Below are positions 30,181 through 40,081 of a stretch of DNA of 40,530 bases, piece by piece. A model generated the notes under the pieces. That model was not told the DNA's origin. It was given only the letters and a program-made list of their open reading frames with translations, and did no database searches. The stretch is from positions 1 to 40,530 of the forward strand of contig RGQD01000006.1 in NCBI GenBank assembly GCA_010030205.1, given 5' to 3'. Within the stretch, counting starts at the first letter, position 1; the number at the start of each line of letters is the position of its first letter. The position numbers and the translations under genes were made by a program. This DNA comes from Betaproteobacteria bacterium (lineage in GTDB: Bacteria > Pseudomonadota > Gammaproteobacteria > Burkholderiales > Burkholderiaceae_C).

Positions 30181-30270
30181 GCGCCGGCTTGGCTTCGTGG
30201 CCTGGCATGCGCGGCGCATGAGCGCCGCTTGGGCGCGTTGCGCCGGCATCACCGTCCAGCTTGGAGCCCG

Positions 30271-31137
30271 ATGAACCCAGACCTTCTCCCCCGGCGCCAA
30301 GCCATTGCAGGCGCCAGACGCCACGATTTGTCGTGCCGTTTGCGCCCGGCGGCAGCTCGGAGATCGTCGCGCGAGCGACCGCCGCCGAACTGGCCAAGCT
30401 GCTGGGTCAGAGTGTGTTCGTCGACAACAAGCCCGGTGGTGCCGGCAACGTCGCGATGGGCGAGGTCGCGCGTGCTGACGACCAGCACACGCTGATCCTG
30501 GGCCACATCGGCACCTTGGCAGTCAACCCCAACATCTTCGACAAGCTGCCCTATGACCTGGCCAAGGATTTCAGGCCGATCTCGCTGCTGTCCAAGGTGC
30601 CCAGCCTGTACGTGGTGCGGCCCGACCTGCCGGCCAGGAACCTGTCGGAGTTCCTCGCGCTGGCCCGGGCCAGGCCGGGCCAGCTGAACTACGGCTCGGC
30701 CGGCAACGGCAGCGCCGGGCATTTGGCGCTGGCAGCTCACCGACCTGATGGGCGGGCGGCTCGATGCGGCGGCCGTCGGCGCGCCGGCGGTGATGCAGTT
30801 CATCAAGGCCGGCAAGCTGCGCTGCATCGCCACCGGCAGCGCCCAGCGCTTGGCGCAGTTGCCCGATGTGCTGACCGTGGCCGAGCAGGGGTTCCCCGGT
30901 TTCGAGATGACGCAGTGGTATGGCATGCTGGCGCCGTCCTCGCTGCCGCAAGCCCATGCCGACAAGCTGGCCGCGGCGGCGGCCAAGGCCGTGCGCGAGC
31001 CCGCTGCGGCCAAGCTGCTCGAAAGCGAAGCCGCACTGGTGATCGGCAGCTCGAGCGCCGAGTTCGCCCGATTCATCGAAGCCGAGCAGCAGCGCTGGAA
31101 GCCGGTGATTGCGCGCGCGAAGATCAGGCCGGATTGA
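30271..31137 (+). pseudogene. Bug-type TTT substrate-binding protein with two frame breaks
   Basis: Three frames carry consecutive parts: MNPDLLPRRQAIAGA (signal start), RFVVPFAPGGSSEIVARATAAELAKLLGQSVFVDNKPGGAGN...NGSAGHLA, then LTDLMGGRLDAAAVGAPAVMQFIKAGKLRCIATGS... Confidence 0.85.
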
Positions 31138-31173
31138 CGCGGCCGCTCGGCGCAGCGGCCGAATCTGACAGGC

Positions 31174-31740
31174 TCAGCGGCTCGTCGCCGGCGGCGCCTT
31201 GTCGCCCGACACCTTGACGCTGGGCAGGTCGCCCTCGTCGATGTCGACGTCGAAGGTCTCGAGAAAGCGTGAGACCAGCATGTAGAAGCCGACGACTACC
31301 GTCAGCTCTTGCAGCGCCTTGTCGCCGAGCGCATCGCGCGCCGGCAGAAACGTTGCGTCGCCGGCCCGGACGTTCTGGACCAAGTCATCGGTGAATCGCA
31401 TCACGAGCCGCTGGCGCTCGTCGAACGCCGCCGCGTCCGGGCCTTCGTGGATCGCCTGGATCAGCGCATCAGACATGCCCAGGCGCCGGGAGATCGCCTC
31501 ATGCTGGAACACCTCGTAGCTCGCCTTGGACAGCACGCCAACCCTGACGATGGCGATCTCGCGCAGCACCGGGTCCAGGCTGGTGAGGTTGAGCAAGTAG
31601 CCGCCGAAGCGGCTGAATGCGGCCAGCATTTCACCCGAATGCCCCAGCATCCGGAAGATGTTGAGGTCGGGCAGCTTGGCATAGGCCTTGGCGGCGCGGT
31701 CGGTGGCGAGGGCAGGGTCGAAGTAGGGGATGCGGGCCAT
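31174..31740 (-). CDS. Carboxymuconolactone decarboxylase (AhpD-like) family protein
   Basis: LDPVLREIAIVRVGVLSKASYEVFQHEAISRRLGMSDALIQAIHEG; CMD fold signature without CxxC. Confidence 0.8.
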   Translation of the reverse strand: MARIPYFDPALATDRAAKAYAKLPDLNIFRMLGHSGEMLAAFSRFGGYLLNLTSLDPVLREIAIVRVGVLSKASYEVFQHEAISRRLGMSDALIQAIHEGPDAAAFDERQRLVMRFTDDLVQNVRAGDATFLPARDALGDKALQELTVVVGFYMLVSRFLETFDVDIDEGDLPSVKVSGDKAPPATSR

Positions 31741-33135: not shown

Positions 33136-33362
33136 GCTTCGATGTTAACTTATAGATTATTAAATTTCAACCATTTGGCAACATTGGCGCGCAGAAGCTG
33201 GCAAGGTCGGGCCAAACTGGGCCGGCTCGTCACGCGCCAGCCAGGCAGCGCGCAGCGATATTTGTCGCCGCCGGGACATCGAGACCCAGCGGCCGGATGA
33301 CACGATCCTCAGCTCGCACAATGGCGCCGCTGGCGCTGCCGCCCACGATGAGCCCGAATGCC

Positions 33363-34799
33363 ATGAACCCCTTGCCTGATGGTTTGATCGTCGTCGTCAA
33401 GCGCGATTGCCCCACCTGCGCCCTGGTCGAGCCCTTGCTGCTCGAGCTGGCGATGGGGCGTTTGCCGCTGACGGTCTATGTCCAGGACGAAGCCCGCTAC
33501 GCGGCCTCGCTGCCGGGCGGTGTGTTCGACGACACGCTCGAGCGCTCGTACCGGCTGGGCATCGAGTTCGTTCCCACGCTGATCCGCGTCGCCGACGGCC
33601 GCGAAGTCGCGCGCACCCACGGCTGGCACCGCGGCGACTGGCGCGAGATCAGCGGCAGGCAAGACCTGGGCGCTGATCTGCCCGAGCTGCGGCCGGGTTG
33701 CGGCTCTAAGACGCTGGACCCCGGCATCGCCGAGGATCTGCTGCTGCGCTTCGGTGACTCGGGCCTGCAGTCGCGCGAGGTCGTGGTTGGCGACGCCGAA
33801 GACGACATCGAAGCCTGTTACGACCGCGGCTGGAGCGACGGCCTGCCGGTGGTGCCGCCAACGCCGGCGCGGGTGCTGCGCATGCTGGCCGGCACGACGC
33901 GCAAACCCGACGAGATTCTGGGTATGGTGCCGCCCGACCTGGTGCCCTGCACGGTCGAGAAAGTGGCGGTCAACGCGGTGATGGCCGGCTGCAAGCCCGA
34001 ATACCTGCCGCTGGTGTTGGCGGCGGTCGAGGCTGCGCTGATCGACGAGTTCGGCATGCACGGCGTGCTGTGCACGACGATGTTTGCCGGGCCGGTCGTC
34101 ATCGTCAACGGCCCGATGGCGCGCAGCGTCGGTTTGAATTCGGGCGTCAATGCGCTCGGCCAGGGCCACCGCGCCAACGCGACGATCGGCCGCGCGCTGC
34201 AGCTGGTGATCCGCAACGTCGGCGGCGGCCGCCCGGGCGAGCTCGACCGCTCGACGCTGGGCACGCCGGGCAAGTACAGCTTCTGCTTCGCCGAGGCCGA
34301 GGATCCGGCCTGGGATTCGCTGTCGGTCGAGCGCGGTTTCAGCCCCGAGGCCTCGACCGTGACGCTGTTTGCCGGCGAAGGCGTTCAAGGCGTGGTCGAC
34401 CAGAAGTCGCGAACGCCCGAGTCGCTGGCGCGCAGCTTCGCGCTGTGCCTGCGGGTCGTCGACCATCCCAAGCTGGCGATGGCAGGCGATGCTTTGCTGG
34501 TCGTCTCGCCCGAGCACAGCCGGGTCTTCATCGAGGCCGGCTGGAGCAAGGCCAGGCTGCGCGAAGAGCTGGCGCGCCTGCTGCTGCTGCCTGGTGACGA
34601 GATGGTGGTCGGCGCTGGCGGCATCACCGAGGGTCTGCCGCCGGCTGTGGCCGGCACGCAAGTGCCCAAGTTCCGGCCCGGCGGCTTGATCATCGTTCGC
34701 GCCGGCGGCGGCGCTGGGCTTTTTTCAGCGATCATCGCTGGCTGGGCCGCCTCCGGCCCGGTGGGTTCCACCCCTGTTTCCAAGGAGATCACTGCATGA
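33363..34799 (+). CDS. Thioredoxin-like domain (CPTC) fused to a large conserved domain; putative partner of the UGSC selenoprotein
   Basis: DGLIVVVKRDCPTCALVEPLLLELAMGRLPLTVYVQDEARYA then EDDIEACYDRGWSDGLPVVPPTPARVLRMLAG...PCTVEKVAVNAVMAGCKPEYLPLVLAAVEAAL...; stop overlaps the next start (ATGA at 34796-34799). ATGs at 33297 and 33363 both possible. Confidence 0.8.
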   Translation: MNPLPDGLIVVVKRDCPTCALVEPLLLELAMGRLPLTVYVQDEARYAASLPGGVFDDTLERSYRLGIEFVPTLIRVADGREVARTHGWHRGDWREISGRQDLGADLPELRPGCGSKTLDPGIAEDLLLRFGDSGLQSREVVVGDAEDDIEACYDRGWSDGLPVVPPTPARVLRMLAGTTRKPDEILGMVPPDLVPCTVEKVAVNAVMAGCKPEYLPLVLAAVEAALIDEFGMHGVLCTTMFAGPVVIVNGPMARSVGLNSGVNALGQGHRANATIGRALQLVIRNVGGGRPGELDRSTLGTPGKYSFCFAEAEDPAWDSLSVERGFSPEASTVTLFAGEGVQGVVDQKSRTPESLARSFALCLRVVDHPKLAMAGDALLVVSPEHSRVFIEAGWSKARLREELARLLLLPGDEMVVGAGGITEGLPPAVAGTQVPKFRPGGLIIVRAGGGAGLFSAIIAGWAASGPVGSTPVSKEITA

Positions 34800-35320
34800 G
34801 CGCATCACAGATACTGCTAGACCCGACCTCGGAGCGCGCGCCCGTGGCGCGGTCGCTGACGGCGCGGCCCGCCGGGCTCGAAGGCCTGACGGTCGGCGTG
34901 CTCGACATCTCGAAGTCACGCGGCAACGTGTTTCTCGACCGGCTTGCCGAGCAGCTCGGCAGCCGCGGCGTTCGTGTCAAGCGCTACCGCAAGCCGACGT
35001 TCACCCGGCCGGCACCCACCGCGCTGCGCCAACAGATCGCTGCCGAATGCCAGCTCGTGATCGAAGGCCTGGCTGACTGAGGGTCCTGTACGTCGTGCTG
35101 TATGCATGACATCGTGGATCTTGAGTCGCGTGGCATTCCGGGAGTCGGCGTTGCATCGAGTGAATTTGTCGTGGCCGCTGAAATGCAGGCCAAGTCGCTG
35201 GGCATGGACCCGGCGATGGTCTTCGTCGCCCATCCGATCCAGGACCGCAGCGACGATGAGCTGCGTGCGCTCGCCGACGCGGCACTGCCTGACATCCTGC
35301 GCCGGCTGGTGGCCGGCTGA
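34796..35320 (+). CDS. UGSC-family selenoprotein; UGA at 35078-35080 decoded as selenocysteine (174 aa)
   Basis: ORFs 34796-35080 and 35102-35320 share one frame; readthrough gives ...AAECQLVIEGLAD-U-GSCTSCCMHDIVDLESRGIPGVGVASSEFVVAAEMQAKSLGMDPAMVFVAHPIQDRSDDELRALADAALPDILRRLVAG*; directly upstream of selA, selB and selC. Confidence 0.92.
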
Positions 35321-35371: not shown

Positions 35372-36793
35372 ATGGCCTTGATCCCGGCTGCGCTGCACCT
35401 GCCGGCGGTCGACCAGGTGCTGGCTTGGCCGGGCTTGGCCGGGCTGCTGGCATCGCAAGGCCGCCAGCCGGTGCTCGACGCGGTGCGCGCCGAGCTGGCC
35501 GAGCGGCGCGCCGCAGCGCGCTTGGCGCCGGCCGGTGCTGCGCCAGACCCAGCTGAACTGCTGGCCGGCATCACGGCCAAGCTGCAGGCCTGGGCCCAGC
35601 CCTCGCTGAGGCCTGTTTTCAACCTCAGCGGCACGGTGCTGCACACCAACCTGGGCCGTGCGCCCTTGCCGGCCCAGGCGCTGGCGGCGATCGCGCAGGT
35701 CGCCGCTGGCGCGTCCAACCTCGAATTCGACCTGGCCAGCGGCCGTCGTGGCGACCGCGACGATCATGTCGAGGCCTGGTTGCGGCGGCTGACTGGCGCC
35801 GAGGCTGCGACCGTGGTCAACAACAATGCCGCGGCGCTGATGCTGGTGCTGGGCAGCTTGGCGCGGCGGCGCGAGGTGATCGTCTCGCGCGGTGAGCTGG
35901 TCGAGATCGGCGGCTCGTTCAGGCTGCCCGAGATCATGGCGCTGGCCGGCTGCAAGCTGCGCGAGGTCGGCACCACCAACCGCACCCACCTGCAAGACCA
36001 TGCCGATGCGTTCGGCCCGCGCAGCGCGATGGTGCTCAAGGTCCACACCAGCAACTACCGCATAGAGGGTTTCAGCGCTGCGGCCGACGAGCGCGAGCTC
36101 GGCGCGCTGTGCAAGCAGCAAGGCCTGCCGTTTGTGGTCGACCTGGGCAGCGGCTCGCTGGTCGACATGGCGCGTTACGGCCTGCCGCGCGAGCCCACGC
36201 CGCAGCAGGCGCTGGCCGCCGGTGCCGACCTGGTGACCTTCAGCGGCGACAAGCTGCTCGGCGGGCCGCAGGCCGGCATCGTGGTCGGCCGCGCCGACCT
36301 GATCGCCAAGCTGAAGAAAAACCCCTTGAAGCGCGCGCTGCGCTGCGACAAGCTCACGCTGGCCGCGCTCGAGGCCGTGCTGCGCCTGTACGCCGACCCT
36401 GAGCGCTTGCAGCAGCAACTGCCCACGCTGCGGCTGCTGGCGCGGCCGGCGGCGCAGATCGAGGCGCTGGCGCAGCGCCTGCAGCCGGTGCTCGCGGCTT
36501 GGTTGATGCTAGGGTTGAGCGACCTGGCGATCGCGGTCGAGGTCGTCGCACTGAGCAGCCAGATCGGCAGCGGTGCGCTGCCGGTCGAGCGCTTGCCCAG
36601 CCATGGCTTGCGGCTGACGCCGTCGGGTGCGAAGCGGCGGTCGGGCAGCGCGCTCGAGGCGCTCGCAGCCCGCTTGCGCGCGCTGCCTGTGCCGGTGGTC
36701 GGCCGCATCGCTGACGGCGCGCTGCTGCTCGACCTGCGCTGCCTGGAGGACGAGCCGGGGTTTCGCACGCTGTTCGAGACCGGCCGCGCATGA
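35372..36793 (+). CDS. selA: L-seryl-tRNA(Sec) selenium transferase
   Basis: RPVFNLSGTVLHTNLGRAPLP...NNNAAALMLVL...VGTTNRTHLQDH...KVHTSNYRIEGF...VVDLGSGSLVD...DLVTFSGDKLLGGPQAGIVVG. Confidence 0.97.
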   Translation: MALIPAALHLPAVDQVLAWPGLAGLLASQGRQPVLDAVRAELAERRAAARLAPAGAAPDPAELLAGITAKLQAWAQPSLRPVFNLSGTVLHTNLGRAPLPAQALAAIAQVAAGASNLEFDLASGRRGDRDDHVEAWLRRLTGAEAATVVNNNAAALMLVLGSLARRREVIVSRGELVEIGGSFRLPEIMALAGCKLREVGTTNRTHLQDHADAFGPRSAMVLKVHTSNYRIEGFSAAADERELGALCKQQGLPFVVDLGSGSLVDMARYGLPREPTPQQALAAGADLVTFSGDKLLGGPQAGIVVGRADLIAKLKKNPLKRALRCDKLTLAALEAVLRLYADPERLQQQLPTLRLLARPAAQIEALAQRLQPVLAAWLMLGLSDLAIAVEVVALSSQIGSGALPVERLPSHGLRLTPSGAKRRSGSALEALAARLRALPVPVVGRIADGALLLDLRCLEDEPGFRTLFETGRA

Positions 36794-38700
36794 TCGTCGC
36801 CACCGCAGGCCATGTCGACCACGGCAAGACCAGCCTGGTCAAGGCCTTGACCGACATAGCCACCGACAACCTGGCCGAGGAGAAGCGCCGCGGCATGTCG
36901 ATAGACCTGGGCTTCGCCCATGCCGAGATCGGTGTCTCGGCCCAGGGTGAGCCGCTGACGCTGGGCTTTGTCGACGTGCCAGGCCATGAGCGCTTCGTTC
37001 GCAACATGTTGGCCGGCGTCGCGGCGATCGATCTGGCGCTGCTGGTGGTCGCCGCAGACGACGGCGTGATGCCGCAGACCCGCGAGCACCTGGCGATCCT
37101 GTCCTTGCTGGGCGTGCCGCGCTGCATCGTCGCGCTGACCAAATCCGACCGCGTCGCGCCGGAGCGGCTGGCCCAGGCCGGGCGTGAGGTCGCCGACTTG
37201 CTCGCCGATGGGCTCCACGCTCACTTTGCTGGCGCCCCGCAGTTCGCGCTGGTGGCCACCGATGCCGGCGACCCAGGCGTGCTGGCGCTGCGCCAGCACC
37301 TGGCCGATGCGGCAGCGCAGCTGGCTGCGCGCAGCACCGCAGGGCATTTCAGGCTAGCGGTCGACCGCAGCTTCGCGCTGGCTGGCGCCGGCCGCATCGT
37401 CACCGGCGCGGTGTTGTCGGGCCGTGTGCAGATAGGTGACGAGCTGGTGCTGTCGCCGCACGGCATCAGCGCCAGGGTGCGCGGCATCCAGGTCGGCAAG
37501 CAGCGCGCCGAGCAGGCCTTGGCCGGCCAGCGCTGCGCGCTCAACCTGGCCGGTGTCGACCTCAAGCGCCGCGACCCGGTCCGCGGCGACTGGATCTTGG
37601 CACCGGCAGCCCACGCGCCGACCGATCGATTGGACGTTCGGCTGCGCGTGCTGGCCAGCGAAGCGCGGCCCTTGCCTTCGCGGCAGATGCTGCAACTGCA
37701 CATTGGCGCTGCGGCGGTCAACGCCCGTGTCGCCGCGCTGGCGGGCTGGGACGCCGCGCCCGGCAGCAGCGGGTTGGCCCAGTTGGTGCTCGAGTCCCCG
37801 ATCGCTGCGCTGCACGGCGATCGGTTCGTGCTGCGAGACCCGGCCGCTAGCCGCACGCTGGCCGGCGGTCAGGTGGTCGACCCTTTCGGTCCGGTGCGTG
37901 GCCGAGACCGGCCGGCGCGCGCGCTGCAGCTGGCTGCGCTGGCGCTGCCCGAGCCCGCGCAAGCGCTGGCAGCGTTGCTGGCTGCCGAACCTGGCGGCGT
38001 GGACCTGGCCCGCTTCGCGCTGGCACGCAATCTGCGCGCCGACGAGGCCGATGCGCTGATCCTGGCGCAGGCGGTGCAGCGCATCCCGGGCTCGGTCTGG
38101 GGCCTGTCGGTCGGTCACTGGCAGGCGCTGCGTGAGCGGCTGTGCGAGGCGCTGGCGCGCTGGCATGCTGACCAGCCCGACGTCTCGGGTGTGGCGGCCA
38201 CCGTGCTGGCGCCTGGCCTGCGCACCGTCTTGCTGCGCGCGGCGCTCGACTCGCTGGTCGAGGCCGGCAGCTTGCAGCGCGAGGGCCTGCGCTACCGCTT
38301 GACGGGGCACATCGCCCAGCTGTCCGAGGCTGACGCCGACCTGCTCGCGCGCGTGACCGATCACCTGGCGCCTGCTGGCCTGCGCCCGCCCATCGTCGGC
38401 GAACTCGCGACGCTGCTAGGGCTGCCGCAGCCTGCGCTGCTCGAGTTCCTGGGCCGCGCCCACCGGCTGGGGCACTTGCTGCGGGTCGCGCCGAACCGTT
38501 TCTACCTGCCGCCCACGGTGGCTGAGCTGGTCCGGCATGCGCGCGAGCTGGCCGCCGAATCCGCTGACGGTGGCGTTGACGCCGCAGCCTTCCGCGACCG
38601 CACCGGCATCGGCCGCAACCTGACGGTGCAGGTGCTCGAGTTTCTCGACCGCGAAGGCCTGACGCGCTTCGATGGCATCCGCCACCGGCCGGTCGATTGA
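36790..38700 (+). CDS. selB: Selenocysteine-specific translation elongation factor
   Basis: MIVATAGHVDHGKTSLVKALTDIATDNLAEEKRRGMSIDLGFAH...FVDVPGHERFVRNMLAGV...; C-terminal winged-helix region; 4-bp overlap with selA. Confidence 0.97.
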   Translation: MIVATAGHVDHGKTSLVKALTDIATDNLAEEKRRGMSIDLGFAHAEIGVSAQGEPLTLGFVDVPGHERFVRNMLAGVAAIDLALLVVAADDGVMPQTREHLAILSLLGVPRCIVALTKSDRVAPERLAQAGREVADLLADGLHAHFAGAPQFALVATDAGDPGVLALRQHLADAAAQLAARSTAGHFRLAVDRSFALAGAGRIVTGAVLSGRVQIGDELVLSPHGISARVRGIQVGKQRAEQALAGQRCALNLAGVDLKRRDPVRGDWILAPAAHAPTDRLDVRLRVLASEARPLPSRQMLQLHIGAAAVNARVAALAGWDAAPGSSGLAQLVLESPIAALHGDRFVLRDPAASRTLAGGQVVDPFGPVRGRDRPARALQLAALALPEPAQALAALLAAEPGGVDLARFALARNLRADEADALILAQAVQRIPGSVWGLSVGHWQALRERLCEALARWHADQPDVSGVAATVLAPGLRTVLLRAALDSLVEAGSLQREGLRYRLTGHIAQLSEADADLLARVTDHLAPAGLRPPIVGELATLLGLPQPALLEFLGRAHRLGHLLRVAPNRFYLPPTVAELVRHARELAAESADGGVDAAAFRDRTGIGRNLTVQVLEFLDREGLTRFDGIRHRPVD

Positions 38701-38730: not shown

Positions 38731-38826
38731 GGAAGGGCAGCGTTTCCCGGTGGAGCGCCCGGTCTTCAAAACCGGTGAGATGCGCCCAGCGTGTCTGGTG
38801 GGTTCGACTCCCACTCCCTTCCGCCA
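38731..38826 (+). tRNA. selC: tRNA-Sec (anticodon TCA)
   Basis: GGAAGGGCAGCGTTTCCCGGTGGAGCGCCCGGTCTTCAAAACCGGTGAGATGCGCCCAGCGTGTCTGGTGGGTTCGACTCCCACTCCCTTCCGCCA: 6-bp D stem, CCGGT/ACCGG anticodon stem with CTTCAAA loop, long variable arm AGATGCGC/GCGTGTCT, encoded CCA. Confidence 0.96.
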
Positions 38827-38934: not shown

Positions 38935-40081
38935 ATGAGTCAGTCCCCCGCCCGCACCGGGCTGCAGCTTCGCACCCTCGTCAAGCCCAGCGCTGAGCTC
39001 GAGATCTCGCTGGTCAGCGTGGCCGTTCCCAGCCCGGCGGCCGACGAGGTCGTCGTTCGGATCGAGGCCACGCCGATCAATCCGTCTGACATCGGTCTGC
39101 TGCTGGGCGCGGCCGACATCGGCAGCGCCAAGCTCTCAGGCAGCGCTGCCAGCCCGGTGGTCACGCTGAGCATCGCCGAGCGGTCGATGAAAGGCCATGG
39201 CCGGCCGGCTGGGTCAGTCGCTGCCGGCCGGCAACGAAGGTGCCGGTGTGGTCGTCGAGGCCGGTGCTTCGGCGGCCGCGCAGGCCTTGCTGGGCAAGAC
39301 GGTGGCGTTGATCGGCGGCGCGATGTACGCCCAGTACCGCAGCATCCAGGCCGACCAGTGCTTGCTGCTGCCAGCGGGCACGACAGCGGCTGAAGGGGCG
39401 TCGTGCTTCGTCAACCCGCTGACGGCGCTGGGCATGGTCGAGACGATGAGGCGCGAAGGCCACAGCGCACTGGTGCACACCGCTGCCGCGTCCAACCTGG
39501 GCCAGATGCTCCAAAAGATCTGCCTGGCCGATGGCGTGGCGCTGGTCAACATTGTGCGCAAGCCCGAGCAGGCGGCGCTGCTGCGGGCGCTCGGCGCGAA
39601 GCATGTCTGCGACGCAAGCTCGGCCAGCTTCATGGACGACCTGATCGAGGCGCTGGCGGCCACCGGTGCGACCATCGCTTTCGACGCCACTGGCGGCGGC
39701 AAGCTCGCCGGTCAGATCCTCATCGCCATGGAGGCTGCGATCAACCGCAACGCCAAGGAATTCAGCCGTTACGGCTCAGCCGTGCACAAACAGGTCTACC
39801 TCTACGGCAACCTCGACCTCAGCCCGACCGAGATCAGCCGCAGCTTCGGCATGGCCTGGGGCATGGGCGGCTGGCTGCTGTTCCCGTTCCTGGACAAGAT
39901 CGGCGCGGCCGCGACCCAGGCCTTGAAACAACGGGTGGCGGCTGAACTCAAGACCACTTTCGCGAGCCATTACGCGCGCGAGATCTCGCTCGCCCAGGCG
40001 CTGCAGGCCGAGCTGATCGCGGTCTATGGCCAGCGCGCCACCGGTACCAAGCTGCTGATCAACCCCAGCTTGGGCGGCTGA
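38935..40081 (+). pseudogene. Zinc-binding alcohol dehydrogenase/quinone reductase-like (MDR), disrupted by a +1 frameshift
   Basis: N part LVKPSAELEISLVSVAVPSPAADEVVVRIEATPINPSDIGLLLGAAD (frame of 38935) continues as MAGRLGQSLPAGNEGAGVVVEAGASAAAQALLGKTVALIGGAMYAQY in another frame; removing one A of AAA at 39190-39192 restores ...MKAMAGRLGQ... Confidence 0.85.

Follow-up and report, generated by a model that had tools for sequence, protein, structure and literature searches.

A UGSC-family selenoprotein gene and its near-constant partner: a candidate two-component selenoenzyme distantly related to the GRDB family

The gene at 34796-35320 of the DNA analysed here (the window, a 40,530-nucleotide stretch of contig RGQD01000006.1 from a Betaproteobacteria bacterium) almost certainly encodes a selenoprotein of the UGSC family, a prominent selenoprotein family that has been without a function since 2007-2008. 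We propose that it and the gene immediately upstream may specify a two-component selenoenzyme that cleaves bonds reductively in the manner of GRDB, with a thioredoxin relay as its electron supply, and we assign this whole mechanism a probability of roughly 0.6. Because a near-constant partner, a predicted fold, a distant relative among enzymes and a proposed route for the electrons can now be given for UGSC, its function becomes directly testable.

A UGSC gene with one in-frame TGA

The following features carry the argument at this gene:

34796-35320, plus strand: UGSC-family selenoprotein (PF24696, NF041046, translation; AlphaFold2 pLDDT 92.9)
35078-35080, plus strand: in-frame UGA (Sec) codon, residue 95; codon kept in relatives
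35092-35110, plus strand: bacterial SECIS hairpin, with loop 35099-35103 between the stem arms 35092-35098 and 35104-35110

The stretch 34796-35080 and the sequence that follows it form a single reading frame whose sole interruption is the TGA at 35078-35080 (codon 95); translating this TGA as Sec yields a 174-aa product that terminates at a second TGA, 35318-35320. The original prediction had described two open reading frames in one frame split by this TGA, a joined product of 174 aa, and the motif L-A-D-U-G-S-C-T-S-C-C around the Sec, and translation of the sequence bears out each of these points. The protein belongs to the UGSC family by a whole-protein match that exceeds the curated cut-offs of both family models: Pfam PF24696 (UGSC) matches residues 7-172 (1.5e-45, 155.8 bits, cut-off 25) and NCBIfam NF041046 matches residues 30-171 (158 bits, cut-off 125), and both models align through the TGA of the joined protein and extend over either side of it. 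U95-x-x-C98-x-x-C101 is invariant (U or C at 95) in 46 aligned UGSC proteins. These matches and the literature agree with the family first named for this gene, UGSC, of metagenomic origin and without known function. The description of the selenoprotein as "hidden" fared less well: the selenoprotein call is supported, but the word is too strong since the curated models PF24696 and NF041046 let current annotators recognise the gene. As knowledge of the family dates back to 2007-2008, the window gene counts as a new member of it.

Evidence for selenocysteine decoding

When 84,980 species genomes were scanned with the partner gene (below) as query, 80 loci were found, 75 of which have a UGSC gene (most of the genomes compared are MAGs, and the window's own genome has 6.9% contamination). 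In the Sec column of these 75 relatives the codon is TGA in 71, TAG in two and TGC in one, and one sequence is cut off before the motif, so that the column holds U or C, as had been expected of true homologs; more Cys forms of the motif occur among fused relatives (below). The TAG codons are those of Blastococcus and Geodermatophilus obscurus (L060:7302-7304, L102:7302-7304). In Geodermatophilaceae tRNA-Sec has the anticodon CUA, and UGSC-motif selenoproteins with UAG have been reported (PMC5330540); the Sec codon thus tracks the tRNA-Sec anticodon, which is not the behaviour of an ordinary stop codon.

The SECIS hairpin begins 11 nt 3' of the UGA. Among 69 distinct UGSC sequences the mean MFE of this hairpin is -10.6 kcal/mol, compared with -3.9 ± 0.28 kcal/mol for random synonymous codons, and by this synonymous-codon control the predicted hairpin just after the UGA is under selection. 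At its third-position pair 18-30, A is always opposite T and never C in the 69 sequences. Shuffling synonymous codons within columns changes the energy little (to -10.3), and most of the hairpin signal is therefore conservation and not covariation.

The decoding genes lie directly downstream, as the original prediction had placed them, and TIGR00474, TIGR00475, ARAGORN and RF01852 confirm their identities:

35372-36793, plus strand: selA, L-seryl-tRNA(Sec) selenium transferase (TIGR00474, 561.8 bits, cut-off 267.9)
36790-38700, plus strand: selB, Sec-specific elongation factor (TIGR00475, 372.7 bits, cut-off 242)
38731-38822, plus strand: selC, tRNA-Sec, anticodon UCA (ARAGORN; Rfam RF01852, 69.2 bits)

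A selD gene was found on contig C846 of the window's genome, where SelA, SelB, SelD and tRNA-Sec are all present, as are two further UGSC genes with one in-frame TGA in each. A genome of the same genus (G380) has the same UGSC-partner pair with selB beside it. A search for Sec-FDH in the window's genome gave only sub-cut-off matches, none of them with an in-frame stop.

Might the TGA at 35078-35080 nonetheless be an ordinary stop, so that the gene makes a 94-aa protein or has decayed, with the downstream similarity a remnant? The terminal stop of the gene is also TGA and the window is a MAG contig, both of which would suit that reading. However, TGA (or TAG matching the tRNA-Sec) is conserved across dozens of genomes, the SECIS is under selection, selABC is adjacent and three such genes occur in the window's genome; we regard a true stop as extremely improbable, and on codon conservation and the SECIS control we reject it as refuted in practice. 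Judged from its sequence, 34796-35320 is a genuine UGSC selenoprotein gene whose UGA at 35078-35080 would be read under SECIS direction with the selA/selB/selC just downstream.

A near-constant partner gene

33297-34799, plus strand: partner gene, up to 500 aa; Trx-like domain, PGCGS, ~350-aa partner domain

The original prediction overlooked this upstream 500-aa gene, which is a near-obligate partner carrying Trx-like CPTC and PGCGS centres. Its account of the UGSC gene itself stands, but the gene unit has to be enlarged: the upstream gene overlaps the UGSC start by ATGA (34796-34799), preceded by AAGGAG, and belongs to the unit. The partner has an N-terminal Trx-like domain with KRDCPTC (Cys38/Cys41), then PGCGS (Cys135) and then a ~350-aa domain of the "Unknown_1" type. 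M23 (33363) is the probable true start: alignments with homologs begin near residue 25, and residues 1-19 have pLDDT <50.

Comparison with NCBIfam matched no family to the partner, Pfam gave weak thioredoxin matches only, and among PDB sequences thioredoxin chains matched at the N-terminus only. Its AlphaFold2 model has a pLDDT of 88.8; Foldseek against the PDB recognises the thioredoxin part, and for the rest of the protein it returned nothing below E 1e-3. A fumarate hydratase-like match of the partner domain (E 3.6e-3, TM 0.2) is too weak to believe. The partner was also sought in viral contigs, and none was found there.

Every UGSC gene in the 22 regions fetched from related genomes has the partner domain adjacent or fused, and in a second set a UGSC gene with TGA is present at 59 of 60 partner loci, the exception lying at a contig end. 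UGSC is absent at five of the 80 loci of the first set; at one of these the contig stops just within UGSC, at two others the sequence continues downstream for only 1-2 kb, and L101 and L123 have 5-6 kb downstream with no UGSC. In the fused forms (~550-600 aa) UGSC comes first and the partner domain second, and several begin with a signal-peptide-like stretch. A gene resembling thioredoxin reductase (TIGR01292 at 1e-78, short of the cut-off) occurs at five of 14 fused-type loci, and it adjoins the fusion gene at both loci inspected (L032, L041). As far as our literature search reaches, the constancy of the partner beside or fused to UGSC is new.

A probable second selenocysteine in some partner proteins

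33699-33701, plus strand: Cys135 codon (TGC) of PGCGS; Cys in the window, TGA in 12 of 111 relatives

The codon for the PGCGS cysteine is an in-frame TGA in 12 of 111 partner proteins (L094:5338, L116:5932, L114:5938, L122:5929, L194:1831(-), L195:1837, L196:1840, L260:902(-), L261:841, L262:858, L263:906(-) and L264:838, where minus-strand positions are counted along the reverse complement), and in these PGUGS partners the Trx domain upstream of the TGA and the partner domain downstream of it are both intact. The 12 fall into three tree groups of seven, four and one members (supports 0.99 and 1.0), which amounts to three changes of the trait on the tree compared with 11.6 when labels are shuffled. 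The codon pattern is strong sequence evidence for a second selenocysteine in the partner.

With a short fold window a hairpin is predicted about 12 nt past the UGA at all 12 sites. Four PGUGS sequences whose flanks vary share the hairpin sequence CTCGAGCCCGGGGTGGCCGAG exactly, and GTTGATCC/GGATCGAC and GTCGACCC/GGGTCGAC differ by a compensated change. The hairpin of L122 is weak, with one mismatch, and against a synonymous null no single hairpin was significant, so a SECIS at this site is suggestive only; with a longer fold window the sites gave no SECIS signal. No counterpart of a PGUGS-type selenoprotein family was found in the family libraries or literature searched, and a second Sec in the partner would thus define a selenoprotein family that none of the lists and libraries checked contains.

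Predicted fold of UGSC and its distant similarity to GRDB

The AlphaFold2 model of UGSC (built with 46 relatives, pLDDT 92.9) has the order b-a-b-a-b-(Sec)a-b-a-b-a and places Sec95 after strand 87-93 and before helix 96-111. In the PDB it matches flavodoxins and reductases of flavodoxin-like fold at E about 2e-5, which at TM about 0.5 are generic flavodoxin-like matches only. The GOS paper gave UGSC a "likely Trx-like fold" (PMC2398784), and a 2026 review repeats this (PMC13188914). The model does not support it; a thioredoxin fold for UGSC was rejected on the predicted topology, the flavodoxin matches in the PDB and a profile comparison with the partner's own Trx domain, which gave a probability of 1%. 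Where the original prediction saw a redox motif of undefined kind, the modelled fold is flavodoxin-like and the distant relatives are GRDB/PrdB proteins.

Genomes with UGSC genes, when TGA is read through, also encode short proteins of PF07355 (GRDB) with the pattern ...LLVPV-U-PxC-HQTVSLVARHLEANGIPT. By hhalign a 67-sequence UGSC profile matches 18 of these short GRDB-like proteins with 93% probability, E 2.6e-7 and score 53, where E-values are those of a single comparison and the GRDB-like side consists of uncharacterised proteins from these genomes. The alignment places Sec on Sec and spans 94 columns. In control comparisons 100 column shuffles scored 18 at most, unrelated decoy families reached 2.5% at most, and masking the motif in both profiles still left 84% (E 7.6e-6). 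A narrower UGSC alignment gave only 10%, which rose to 93% when divergent paralogs were added. PF07355 itself has no match to UGSC members even at E<=10, and by Pfam's rule UGSC is outside the GRDB family.

The literature on this family supplies a chemical precedent: GrdB/F/H carry UxxCxxC (PMC6778437), the selenolate of which attacks an activated carbon in GRDB-family B subunits (PMC6778437; PMC10838667), and one Synergistota genome has eight grdB genes, including a fluoroacetate-cleaving candidate, with copies per substrate (PMC10838667). The UGSC-partner pair could instead be a two-component selenoenzyme of other chemistry (reduction of S-oxides, N-oxides, nitro groups or arsenic, or acyl transfer), its GRDB likeness reflecting a shared flavodoxin-like scaffold and a convergent Sec-helix motif. 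A search of the partner by Pfam recognised no GrdE/PrdA pyruvoyl subunit, the partner domain has no known fold, and PrdB-like genes occur in the same genomes without the UGSC partner, all of which lean that way; on the other hand, the profile similarity persists after motif masking and covers strand-Sec-helix-strand in the same LExxGIPT-type context. We consider this other chemistry improbable.

Two side observations concern related proteins. The short GRDB/PrdB-like selenoproteins of L127-L143, L045 and L046 have ORFs that end at the Sec TGA, with no UGSC partner nearby, and ordinary gene calling would truncate them. DUF116 (PF01976) weakly matches 11 of 46 UGSC proteins (best E 9e-4) and is possibly another distant relative.

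Paralog numbers and genomic neighbourhood

UGSC genes number 58, 26 and nine in genomes G1021, G788 and G332, respectively, and 19-26 in genomes related to G1021. G1021 (loci L245-L249, L254, L255) is 98% complete and belongs to the same taxonomic order as the window's genome, and nearly all of its 58 genes have one in-frame TGA. The 2026 review puts the largest bacterial selenoproteomes that it names at 57 and 63 genes and names anaerobes as the richest organisms (PMC13188914), so the 58 UGSC selenoprotein genes of G1021 rival these. Within the reach of our literature search, a genome with 58 UGSC copies is new. Such paralog numbers are more in keeping with substrate-specific enzymes than with housekeeping redox proteins.

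Only selA/selB, TctC receptors, MmgE/PrpD and CoA-transferases recur near UGSC genes. The 5.7 Mb of G1021 hold about 995 TctC receptor and 286 MmgE/PrpD first-look candidates, of which 150 each were scored and confirmed, an extraordinary organic-acid uptake repertoire. TctC and MmgE/PrpD genes flank many of the UGSC copies in G1021. We rejected these neighbours as a clue to the substrate; their closeness to UGSC carries no weight because they are as dense throughout G1021.

Three other genes of the window deserve mention. A TctC receptor ORF (30261-31217) matches positions 1-122 of the 274 of its Pfam model only and is probably frameshifted. A quinone-oxidoreductase-like gene at 38935-40081 is split between the overlapping frames 38935-39393 and 39197-40081, by either a frameshift or an assembly error. 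On the minus strand, 31174-31740 encodes a CMD/AhpD-like protein that weakly resembles the "YciW-related (seleno)protein" NF053654, below cut-off.

Proposed mechanism

We infer a physical UGSC-partner complex, the type of reaction and the path of the electrons; reductive cleavage with a relay is proposed because of the UxxCxxC motif, the related domain, a Trx-bearing partner with a Cys/Sec centre, and the paralog numbers. UGSC would be the small selenocysteine subunit, and the translationally coupled gene 33297-34799 would encode the large one. Sec is predicted at the helix N-cap after the third strand of the flavodoxin-like domain, with Cys at +3 and +6 (U-x-x-C-x-x-C), a GRDB-like arrangement. 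The substrate would be small and polar, probably an organic acid or amine bound where UGSC and the partner domain meet; attack by the selenolate on an activated carbon of this molecule would displace a leaving group. Cys98/Cys101 would resolve the seleno-adduct or selenenylsulfide so formed, followed by the partner's PG[C/U]GS and its CPTC thioredoxin domain, with electrons coming from a thioredoxin-reductase-like flavoprotein. The relay order would then be U95 - C98/C101 - PG[C/U]GS - CPTC - TrxR, and cleavage would occur at the UGSC-partner interface. The basis for the relay is the Trx domain of the partner, the presence of Sec at PGCGS in 12 of 111 partners and the TrxR-like gene at five of 14 fused-type loci.

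UGSC might alternatively be a generic thiol/selenol oxidoreductase or peroxidase (for antioxidant or disulfide repair roles), with the partner only its reductant or client. The UxxC motif, the Trx domain in the partner and the grouping of UGSC with Trx-fold redox proteins by the GOS paper (PMC2398784) and the 2026 review (PMC13188914) speak for such an enzyme, whereas the UGSC model is flavodoxin-like and not Trx-like, the Trx domain profile comparison gives 1%, and the obligate pairing of UGSC with a large conserved non-Trx domain and its up to 58 paralogs per genome fit a substrate-specific enzyme better; we think the generic enzyme unlikely, though it is the most probable of the alternatives.

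If two-component reductive cleavage is correct, UGSC and its partner may represent a large unrecognised class of GRDB-style selenoenzymes, their pairs substrate-tuned and present in up to 58 copies per genome, with the partner itself a selenoprotein (PGUGS) in three lineages, and may catalyse the selenium-dependent reductive cleavage of bonds in ordinary soil and water bacteria, aerobes among them. We hold this broader view tentatively, at a little less than even odds. As far as our literature search reaches, neither the second selenocysteine nor the revised fold nor the GRDB link is in print.

Comparison with known systems

The GRDB family (PF07355; GrdB/F/H of glycine, sarcosine and betaine reductases and PrdB of D-proline reductase) shares with UGSC the Sec and the Cys at +3, and in GrdB/F/H also the Cys at +6; the profiles align over 94 columns, and substrate-specific paralogs and thioredoxin as the reductant would be further shared features. 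UGSC differs in being below the PF07355 threshold and a stand-alone small domain, and in having another partner, in which no pyruvoyl GrdE/PrdA subunit was found. It also differs in occurring in genera known as aerobes (Geodermatophilus and Blastococcus). With the thioredoxin family the likeness is confined to the partner, whose N-terminal CPTC domain matches thioredoxins; UGSC itself is flavodoxin-like in topology and has no profile similarity to them.

From the UGSC family (PF24696/NF041046; the GOS "UGSC-containing protein") the window gene itself departs in nothing, having the same U-G-S-C motif, a full-length match and Sec with rare Cys forms. The GOS study of 2008 noted a "UGSC/Unknown_1 fusion" (PMC2398784), which is most probably what our fused relatives (UGSC, then partner domain) are. 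The window differs from this fusion in having two separate genes in reversed order, partner first, and in a partner that has gained a thioredoxin-like domain and the PG[C/U]GS centre.
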